Positions 1 to 1,619 of a DNA stretch of 27,165 nt are shown in pieces (position 1 is the first letter of the stretch; every line of letters starts with the position of its first letter). The DNA comes from a virus. Under the pieces are notes generated by a model that was given only the letters and a program-made list of their open reading frames with translations, had not been told where the DNA came from and did no database searches. A program made the translations under genes and the position numbers. The DNA is taken from positions 1 to 27,165 of the IMG/VR virus record IMGVR_UViG_3300021225_000200; one strand, 5' to 3'.

Positions 1-8
1 TTTTTGTC

Positions 9-67
9 AATCACACGGCGACCACCGAGATCTACCACTCTGTCCCTACACGACGCTCTTCCGATCT
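9..67 (+). other. Illumina P5/TruSeq adapter remnant (assembly artefact)
   Basis: The sequence follows the Illumina P5 plus read-1 adapter almost base for base, with a few substitutions and one inserted C, and ends in the diagnostic CGACGCTCTTCCGATCT. It is not phage DNA. The true genome sequence begins no earlier than base 68, and the left edge should not be read as a genome terminus. Confidence 0.97.
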
Positions 68-131
68 GGCATCTTGATCCGGAGTGTCCCCGAAGTGACA
101 TCACCATCGAATGCATCCCCGAAGTTGCTCC

Positions 132-160
132 AAAAAAAAGCCCCACTAAGAAGCGGGGCT
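132..160 (-). terminator. Rho-independent terminator (minus strand)
   Basis: On the minus strand AGCCCC and GGGGCT form a stem around a short loop, followed directly by a run of eight T. It would stop leftward transcription. No minus-strand gene is visible just upstream, so it may end a non-coding or antisense transcript of this region. Confidence 0.65.
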
Positions 161-422
161 AAGTCCCCAGTTGGATGGGGAGAGGAGACAAGGAGAAGCA
201 CGAGTGAACATGCAAACGCAGTATACCCCGGGATCGCCCGGTGAGTTTGTGCGTTTAAACATAGCACCAGAAAAAAGCGGCAATAAGTAGTTAGGGCAAA
301 CACTTATATGGGGTGCCTGTTTTTCTTGTACACTTGTTTCTGCGCGACATGATCGTACCCGTGCAGTTCCTGCACAAATTGGCTTTTCCGGAGAGCCTAC
401 CAAGGGGAAAATAGCCTCGCGC

Positions 423-658
423 CCAACACGCATGGGGATTGTCGGTTCACAACCGAGCAGCGGGTGGTTTCCGTTGCATGAGATTCAGTCCCCAGCCGTG
501 TTGGTGGGATGTGGCATGGCGCGAGTACGCGATCATCATCAAAGCTATGGGCTGGAGCAATAAGCCATGCACCCAAGCGCCACCAACAACTAACACGCAT
601 GGGGATTGTGGTTCGCCGTTTAGAGCCGTCCTTGCAAGGCAGTCTCCAGCCGTGTTGG
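423..658 (+). ncRNA. Duplicated long stem-loop, candidate structured RNA
   Basis: Two copies of one hairpin lie 167 bases apart. In copy 1, CCAACACG (423-430) plus TGGGGA (433-438) pair with TCCCCA (489-494) plus CGTGTTGG (497-504), with a CA/GC internal loop. In copy 2 the same arms are at 590-605 and 643-658. Differences between copies keep pairing through G-T wobbles, and both retain the same internal loop, which points to an RNA function. Between them GCATGGC (514-520) pairs with GCCATGC (564-570). GTTGGTGG (500-507) can also pair with CCACCAAC (580-587), which would compete with the first hairpin. The strand is assumed from the downstream tRNA-like element and terminator. Confidence 0.6.
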
Positions 659-677
659 GAAAGCGGATGCTGTGCCA

Positions 678-769
678 GAGTCTGGTCTATTGGTGATGTA
701 GCTAAAGAGACTCAAGTGCCGCTACGGGCAATACTTGGGTCTCCGTGAGTTCGAATCTCACCAGACGCA
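678..769 (+). ncRNA. tRNA-like element without an anticodon loop
   Basis: A perfect T arm is present (GTGAG, loop TTCGAAT, CTCAC; 745-761). It is followed by CAGACGC (762-768), which pairs with GAGTCTG (678-684) at six of seven positions as an acceptor stem, with A769 in the discriminator place and no encoded CCA. GTCT/AGAC can form a D-like stem with GG in its loop. In place of a normal anticodon arm there is an 11-bp helix (707-717 with 733-743) capped by a 15-base loop that has no plausible anticodon. This recalls the tRNA-like domain of tmRNA, although no tag-peptide reading frame is seen. A decayed class II tRNA is the main alternative. Confidence 0.5.
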
Positions 770-797
770 GCGAGTACCAATATTTTTTGTAAAGTTG

Positions 798-826
798 TTG
801 CACCCCGTATCATTCTGTGATACAGT
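798..826 (+). promoter_or_regulatory. Possible sigma70 promoter
   Basis: TTGCAC, a 17-base spacer and TACAGT resemble -35 and -10 boxes. The inverted repeat GTATCA/TGATAC overlaps the spacer. Transcription would start near 833 and run into the terminator at 860-927, giving an RNA of roughly 95 bases. Motif match only. Confidence 0.35.
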
Positions 827-835
827 GCGAACAGT

Positions 836-927
836 TGCCGTAGGAAGCGACTGGTTGAAAGCCGTTTACTCATGCCTCTTCCACCTTTTGGTGGTTCCTA
901 CAGGGGGCAGTAGTAAACGGCTTTTTT
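836..927 (+). terminator. Pseudoknot-capable RNA ending in an intrinsic terminator
   Basis: AGCCGTTTACT (860-870) pairs perfectly with AGTAAACGGCT (912-922), followed by a T run: a strong rho-independent terminator with a 41-base loop. Inside the loop CCACC/GGTGG (881-894) forms a second hairpin. TAGGAA (841-846), upstream of the stem, pairs with TTCCTA (895-900) inside the loop, which would make a pseudoknot. The unit may be a small RNA or the 3' end of a longer RNA that includes the elements upstream. Confidence 0.65.
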
Positions 928-1154
928 CATTCCTGCCGTACTCCACACGATAGCAAGCGTTAACCTGACGGCGTGGAAGAAAAGGGTACACGGTAAGCGT
1001 TATGGCGCGGAGCAACTACTCCCAATAATCCGTGGTGCTGGTCTAAGCTGCAAGCACAGGGGGCATAACAGCCATGCAGATGCCGAGAGGCGGTGAAACC
1101 ATTCCTTCCTTCTCCTTCAGTGGGGAAGGGGGGTCTTTGGGTGAAAATTAACAA

Positions 1155-1180
1155 GACCGCCCAAGCGGTCGATGAAAGGA
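1155..1180 (+). promoter_or_regulatory. Hairpin directly upstream of a ribosome site
   Basis: GACCGC (1155-1160), loop CCAA, GCGGTC (1165-1170) is a perfect 6-bp hairpin ending five bases before the ribosome-binding AAAGGA (1175-1180) of the gene at 1185. It has no T run, so it is more likely a translational or mRNA-stability element than a terminator. Confidence 0.4.
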
Positions 1181-1184
1181 TGAG

Positions 1185-1619
1185 ATGAGAGAGTTGTATG
1201 AATCAGAGGATGACTTAGCCAGAGAGTCCAAGGTCATAGCCTTGGTCGAGTCTGCGTGGAAATGCAAGGCGGTGAAGTTGTCCATCAAGTACAGTCTTGA
1301 CTATGTTCTGACCAGAGATGACAAGGCCCTTGCCTTTTGCGAGGTTAAGACTAGAAACTACACGATGGCAGAGATTGACCAGTTCGGGGGTTACCTGTTG
1401 AGCCTTGGTAAATGGACGGCAGCAAAGGAAATAGCCGAGTCTTCTGGTCTGCCATTTTTTCTTGTTGTTAAAGCAACCGATGCTGTCTATTATGCAGAAT
1501 TCCGTACCGGATTTTTCCACCCTGATAACGTGTTGGTCAGAGGTAGGAAAGACAGAGATGACTGGCAGGACATAGAGCCTTGTGTCTTGCTTGATGTAAA
1601 CAAGTTTAAAAAAATCTAG
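1185..1619 (+). CDS. PD-(D/E)XK-like nuclease
   Basis: The 144-residue product carries the spaced acidic core of the PD-(D/E)XK fold: E22 in an N-terminal helix, D39 in a short strand, and E53-V-K55 at the end of the next strand (AFCEVKTR). Enzymes of this fold cut DNA using Mg2+, and phages use small ones to resolve branched DNA or degrade host DNA. The exact subfamily is not recognisable. It opens a three-gene unit with an HNH-like protein and the primase-helicase, which supports a role in DNA metabolism. The ATG at 1185 follows AAAGGA at close range, downstream of a hairpin. The fold call rests on motif spacing alone. Confidence 0.65.
   Translation: MRELYESEDDLARESKVIALVESAWKCKAVKLSIKYSLDYVLTRDDKALAFCEVKTRNYTMAEIDQFGGYLLSLGKWTAAKEIAESSGLPFFLVVKATDAVYYAEFRTGFFHPDNVLVRGRKDRDDWQDIEPCVLLDVNKFKKI

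Follow-up and report, generated by a model that had tools for sequence, protein, structure and literature searches.

Results

The region analysed here probably belongs to a class of modular phage RNA that is very widespread and had not been listed before. It combines an array of hairpin domains, a promoter with a two-hairpin terminator RNA (element 2) and a leader RNA (element C). Its structure, the strand that is the RNA, the exchange of cassettes and its spread are demonstrated at the level of sequence comparison. The window is the whole stretch of DNA that was analysed, 27,165 nucleotides of the genome of a freshwater phage (viral record IMG/VR IMGVR_UViG_3300021225_000200), and features lie on its + strand unless stated otherwise. 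An earlier note had proposed a candidate large structured RNA region in a phage at 423-927. The structured RNA spans a wider stretch, approximately 163-1184, and is made up of at least three separate structured elements rather than one large RNA: the array at 425-785 (A-B-A-B1), the promoter and two-hairpin terminator RNA at 798-927, and the C leader at 934-1150. That the region is structured RNA is supported by covariation in independent sets (frame A, frame B2, element 2 and C), and in the homologues collected for these sets pairing-preserving changes were found far above those in shuffles. The main point beyond the earlier note is that the stems are constant frames with exchangeable inserts.

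Window layout

Positions 1-68 are an artefact and not phage sequence. We recognised them by eye as an Illumina adapter remnant, which we take to be approximately the P5 adapter, ending ACACGACGCTCTTCCGATCT; the public record is thus contaminated at the start of the contig. The C-terminal end of a RusA-type Holliday junction resolvase follows (69-162, open frame to 162), with 78% DNA identity to L011, the nearest relative, whose full resolvase ORF matches both Pfam RusA and the PHROG RusA-like resolvase. This gene precedes the array, and the C element precedes a PD-(D/E)XK nuclease (PDDEXK_14; 1185-1619; Pfam PF24579, E 6.6e-32) and a primase-helicase. Protein coding within the region is ruled out by the insert lengths, which are not biased to multiples of three, and by open frames that are about as frequent as in shuffles, in agreement with the claim that the region holds no protein gene.

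Frame A and its covariation

Two copies of one stem-loop had been noticed in the window. Both are present, at 425-502 and 592-656, with arms that are identical at 18/18 and 18/19 positions and insides that are unrelated. The frame A pattern is AACACG CAU GGGGAUUG..insert..CAGUCCCC AGC CGUGUU. Fold z-scores were computed against dinucleotide shuffles (200 for the two A copies). Copy 1 (arms 425-441 and 486-502; cassette TCGGTTCACAACCG...GAGATT) has a z-score of -6.8, with 0/200 shuffles folding as well, and copy 2 (arms 592-608 and 640-656; cassette TGGTTCGCCG...TTGCAAGG) has a z-score of -3.2, with 1/200. The long-range helix that was said to compete with the first stem-loop (arms 422-441 and 640-659) does exist, but as a by-product and not as a separate feature: as the two copies are built on one frame, the 5' arm of the first can pair with the 3' arm of the second. 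In L011 a single A frame stands where the window has A-B-A. The module of copy 1 is 96% identical in L061 and 94% identical in L179, and that of copy 2 matches at 87-90% in L049, L146, L161 and others.

The exact 17-mer of the 5' arm of A was found in at least 120 IMG/VR viral contigs, where the 3' arm is nearly always present 20-200 nt further on. A search of 84,980 bacterial and archaeal genomes with the same 17-mer gave 19 matches, only one of them with the partner arm. This sole host copy lies on a 1.18-Mb contig of Polynucleobacter sp. UK-Kesae-W10 and ends beside a tRNA-Gly; among 299 related genomes the exact 17-mer occurs in that one only. Matches in Bartonella and other hosts have no partner arm and were hence rejected as chance or coding. 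Since nearly all host matches are without the partner arm, the frame A family is phage-linked.

The covariation set for frame A consisted of 52 distinct stems, namely the consensus and 51 stems from modules in which neither arm equals the search pattern. In this set 95.3% of cells are paired and 46 cells carry double changes, compared to 9.8 after shuffling; in helix 2, 98.6% of cells are paired and both sides have changed in 6/8 pairs. None of these measures was reached by any of 500 shuffles. The four free positions of the frame are fully paired in 210 of 223 modules, with 22 of 32 distinct combinations paired compared to 6.8 in shuffles (maximum 14). As the sample was selected with seed patterns, the counts are minimum values and the conservation of the stems is in part a consequence of that selection; we relied on covariation tests at positions or in modules lying outside the search patterns.

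Among A modules not fixed by the search, G.U occurs 71 times and A.C twice. The large excess of G.U identifies the RNA as that of the + strand. In 251 of 286 modules one particular U.G wobble is conserved, which suggests recognition by some factor. The T-loop motif GTTCRA is present in 16 of 277 A inserts (approximately 6%), and the array is therefore not simply tRNA mimicry.

Cassette exchange

The A inserts are 20-200 nt long and unrelated between copies, and the same family of inserts can be found again in unrelated phages and within frames other than A. From 320 freshwater A modules we obtained 127 insert families, and 47 of the 63 families with at least two members sit between unrelated 250-nt flanks on both sides. 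There are also 17 contig pairs with similar flanks and different A inserts. For L083/L048 and L061/L249 the flanks are near-identical and the insert is wholly replaced, with breakpoints at the arms. As far as sequences can tell, cassette exchange in near-identical phages is thereby demonstrated; it probably takes place by recombination in the conserved arms. Twenty of 118 A insert families were also found outside called A modules. Some of these are A variants, and clear cassettes in other frames are those in B1 (L219, L372), in a different stem in Polynucleobacter, and in a GAAGCTG/CAGCTTC stem. Replacement extends to whole modules, with a B2 module or a tRNA-like module taking the place of the same C-element hairpin loop in L041 (1214-1611) and L422 (886-1242).

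The window region itself matches different phages piece by piece. Compared to L011, the helicase is 86% and the C element 94% identical, the single A frame of L011 carries another cassette, and the loop-loop helix of element 2 differs. The pair L153/L086, considered as a case of swapped module order, was rejected as identical over the aligned stretch. The variety of cassettes could represent drift in non-functional loops; the recurrence of cassettes as defined families is a point against this explanation.

B modules and the tRNA-like cassette

Between the two A frames lies a B-type module (500-590; GTTGGTGG...CCACCAACAAC; z -2.0), with a closing stem as in B modules elsewhere. Frame B1 is at 654-780 (GTTGGGAAAGCGGATGCTG...CAGCGAGTACCAAT) and is followed by a U run at 783-788 that may end the array transcript. 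The B1 pattern was found in 30 viral contigs, and window positions 640-780 are 88% identical to L093. The B1 cassette at 680-766 is tRNA-like, with an acceptor stem (680-686/760-766), a T arm (745-761) and an 11-bp hairpin (707-717/733-743) that stands where the anticodon arm would be. The tRNA-like element of the earlier note is thus real, although it is not a tRNA: neither ARAGORN nor Rfam finds a tRNA (cloverleaf with anticodon arm) in the window. The cassette recurs in L044, L093, L168 and L382; a pattern search of viral contigs with the exact 5' half of the window's element gave no match.

Frame B2, GGUGAAUGCGCAGGCUGAUGCGC..GCCGGAGAUCAGCACCGGCCACC, was found in 120 or more viral contigs, and many of these, to judge from the IMG genome numbers, are prophages in isolate genomes. 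A single B2 query matched 132 GenBank phage records, and with at most one mismatch B2 was found in 8 of 398 Pseudomonadota genomes, where the reversed control gave 0 matches. Immediately beyond the search pattern, the first two positions of the outer stem are paired in 67/67 distinct combinations, with a mean run of 3.85 compared to 1.72 in shuffles; the second hairpin covaries too. The two loops (GCUGAU and AUCAGC) are complementary to each other and likely make a kissing contact.

Promoter, two-hairpin terminator RNA and C element

A predicted sigma70 promoter (798-826; TTGCAC, 17 nt, TACAGT) immediately precedes the two-hairpin terminator RNA (832-927, approximately 95 nt). The promoter score in 31 homologues is 8.7 out of 12, compared to a mean of 6.8 and a maximum of 7.16 for shuffled sequences, and GTTG usually follows the end of the -10 by 6-7 nt. 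The loop of the first hairpin pairs with the internal loop of the intrinsic terminator that follows (terminator stem 858-870/913-925), positions 840-846 (GTAGGAA) pairing with 895-901 (TTCCTAC) in the window. The terminator had been called pseudoknot-capable, and the homologues bear this out: the loop-loop helix has at least 7 bp in 31/31 of them, with 19 distinct sequences, and its mean length is 7.35 bp compared to 4.41 in shuffles (maximum 5.35, 300 shuffles). This helix was tested sequence by sequence because the MAFFT alignment misaligned the inner loop. Positions 828-927 fold with a z-score of -6.9 relative to dinucleotide shuffles. From its anatomy and position, the two-hairpin RNA may well act as an attenuator and limit how much transcription proceeds into C and its gene.

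The C element (934-1150) is a conserved pseudoknotted leader RNA that ends shortly before the next gene, and a 24-mer from it occurs in 34 viral contigs. In ten homologues, ten helices including one pseudoknot have 98.6% of their cells paired, with both-side changes in 17 of 45 pairs and 0/500 shuffles as good on four of five measures. The 5' hairpin of C is not restricted to this element: in L150 and L214 it stands before a second downstream domain of a different kind.

Occurrence in known phages

P1, P7, mEp460, phiEt88 and Klebsiella phages carry frame B2 and A modules of an enteric form, in many cases next to tRNA genes. Enteric A reads ACAACAGG UAA GAGCAUUG..CAGUGCUC UUA CCGUUGU and precedes B2 in P1, mEp460, IME207 and phiEt88. 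Relative to freshwater A, AUUG/CAGU is kept and GGGG/CCCC is swapped for GAGC/GCUC. A 90-nt P1 query matched 224 phage records, and a 591-bp stretch of the mEp460 module region has matches in 2,814 of 5,426 complete E. coli genomes, the matched part not covering the modules in every case. P1 (L394) and P7 (L452) are approximately 96% identical around the array and differ by whole modules and cassettes in the tRNA-ban operon, where the array stretch comes after tRNA-Asn/tRNA-Thr (OP279344, 65.5-66.5 kb). In the P7 record the C1-repressor operator Op(ban) is annotated upstream of the tRNAs and the array, so that lytic expression is likely. An apparent extra tRNA-Ser was also seen between the modules of P7.

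The proximity to tRNAs that had been likened to that of GOLLD and ROOL holds for the family, which we found in tRNA islands of P1, P7, SUSP2, IME207, phi_D3 and phiEt88. The phiEt88 array is flanked by Q and a tRNA, and the match in Suspvirus SUSP2 is an A cassette within a tRNA island. Elsewhere, the neighbours of arrays include NinB, RuvC-like and HNH genes, which lie upstream, and terminase genes, found on either side. Several records list 'hypothetical proteins' or tRNA-Arg over modules, and gene annotation there looks unreliable.

Some minor observations were made at these loci. A recurring phage protein of 70-90 aa (..VASQDDLV..) is encoded beside arrays in L036, L167 and L426. The SUSP2 tRNA island (L400; approximately 780-865, 1240-1530 and 2130-2750) contains non-canonical tRNA-like genes that are not annotated as tRNAs, one with an extended hairpin replacing the D arm and others with extra hairpins. 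In mEp460 (L393, 4147-4330) another long-stem element, ACAAAACAGAGAAGAGCA..TGTTCTTCTCTGTTTTGT, lies before the early-left genes and is very common in E. coli. The annotation table of the K-12 MG1655 CPS-53 region has no annotated RNA.

Database and literature searches

Rfam gave no gathering-score match to GOLLD or ROOL on the window or on 37 related loci, and none at E up to 10 on window positions 1-1250. A tmRNA was not found in the window by ARAGORN or by Rfam, either at gathering or at E up to 10. No Rfam 15 family matched frame A, B2, element 2 or C, and the only Rfam families in the 37 loci were tRNA, C4, isrK, int-alpA and IS1222_FSE. The covariance-model searches that the earlier note had proposed (GOLLD, ROOL, tmRNA and all Rfam) thus gave nothing on the window at gathering score; with E relaxed to 10 on 1-1250, the only matches were weak ones to terminator-like sRNAs on the minus strand at 132-243, which we ascribe to chance or terminator likeness. 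At 132-190 on the - strand, Betaproteobacteria_toxic_sRNA scored below threshold (40.6 bits, cutoff 50), mainly over a terminator hairpin.

A blastn search of 68-1184 against GenBank phages gave no match, probably because the modules are short and mosaic. Mimicry of rRNA or pairing to it as antisense was rejected, as words shared with E. coli rRNA are about as long as those for shuffles. In the literature searched, which included searches with sequence words and had subscription journals and most preprints outside its scope, we found no description of the modules.

Discussion

Modules of this class are present in classic phages such as P1 and P7 and in hundreds of phages overall, and absent from Rfam and from the literature searched. 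The broad kind, large phage RNAs near tRNAs with unknown function, is already known; frames with exchangeable cassettes are new within the reach of our tests. Phage proteins are well known to exchange folded domains, and such exchange is seen here in RNA, with constant stems as joints. The two-hairpin terminator RNA and C represent two further RNA families with strong covariation. Having P1 as a carrier makes the function of the modules directly testable.

In the model that we propose, the array is a chain of independently folding hairpin domains in which a constant frame (A, B1, B2 and others) encloses an exchangeable cassette, and phages would diversify by replacing cassettes and whole modules. 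The array RNA would be stable and made in lytic growth with the resolvase or tRNA transcript. The promoter would then lead into the loop-loop terminator RNA, attenuating entry into C and its gene, and the pseudoknotted C leader would control entry into the next operon. As to function, we tentatively suggest that the array is a stable lytic RNA whose cassettes act in trans on a fast-changing factor of the host or of a rival phage, in counter-defence or host-takeover. The rapid turnover of cassettes in otherwise near-identical phages points to a conflict with such a changing factor. Slightly more speculative is a combinatorial RNA system in which each cassette would provide specificity against one host defence factor or rival phage and recombination would reshuffle the cassettes as it does the genes of receptor-binding proteins, with hosts that would include at least enteric, Pseudomonas and freshwater bacteria.

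RNA-based antitermination, as by HK022 put or the Bacillus EAR element, is rather unlikely to be the main role of the two-hairpin RNA and/or C. In HK022 put RNA two hairpins lie directly after the promoter and make a tertiary contact (PMC9378689), and window positions 832-927 likewise form two stem-loops at the predicted transcript start, with a loop-loop contact in homologues. The mEp460 modules are in the early-left leader, and arrays occur near the Q/nin region before late genes. However, unlike in put, the second hairpin of 832-927 is itself an intrinsic terminator, the A/B array of L161 follows a stop codon with no space for a promoter between them, and an antiterminator would not need more than 100 cassette families. 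The lambda late leader pR'-tR' (6S RNA) also consists of a promoter and a short terminator-bearing leader near the nin/Q region. Element 2 resembles it in having a promoter and a short leader with a terminator, but differs in its covarying loop-loop helix and in the next genes, a nuclease and a primase-helicase. No Q protein was identified in the window.

It is similarly unlikely that tRNA-like modules and altered tRNAs are decoys or escape variants for tRNA-cutting defence enzymes, soaking up anticodon nucleases or staying uncut. The location of arrays in tRNA islands, the tRNA-like nature of some cassettes (window 680-766; the P1 A-frame insert) and a hypervariability that fits an arms race are consistent with this role, whereas the T-loop motif in only 16 of 277 cassettes argues against it.

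Elements acting at the DNA level, such as cruciform recombination sites, integron attC-like sites or MITE-like insertions, would account for inverted arms that are common to unrelated insides and for exchange at the arms. They are nevertheless very improbable, as the excess of G.U over A.C is explained only by RNA of one strand, and compensatory changes and the direction of the arrays (co-directional with the next gene in 147 cases vs 43) speak for RNA as well. By eye, the frame arms read GTTGGTG / CACCAAC and do not match the attC core GTTRRRY/RYYYAAC.

That the region is a new or diverged GOLLD or ROOL RNA, as the earlier note had suggested, is close to refuted. GOLLD and ROOL are large, highly structured, phage-borne, often beside tRNAs and of unknown function, and GOLLD has a less conserved 5' region and occasionally carries tRNAs (PMC12286853). 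Our family shares the phage location near tRNA genes, the window itself being without a tRNA by ARAGORN. In contrast to the one closed fold of GOLLD and ROOL, the architecture here is a chain of separate small domains with exchangeable cassettes, and Rfam gave no match to either on the window or on 37 related loci. An RNA-only multimeric cage is a further mark of the GOLLD/ROOL kind. The tRNA-like pieces and nearby tRNA islands could suggest that the non-coding spacer holds decayed tRNA genes and similar debris; this reading is refuted by the covariation, which reflects strong purifying selection on pairing in all elements.

We know of no function for the species 1 and 2 RNAs of T4. These RNAs (rnaC and rnaD; NC_000866) are similar to the modules in that they are small and stable and lie next to tRNAs within a phage tRNA cluster, and differ from the window in having, by eye, neither an A nor a B frame. 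T4 rnaC (species 1; L402, 1109-1247) ends in a tRNA-like T arm, as some cassettes do.
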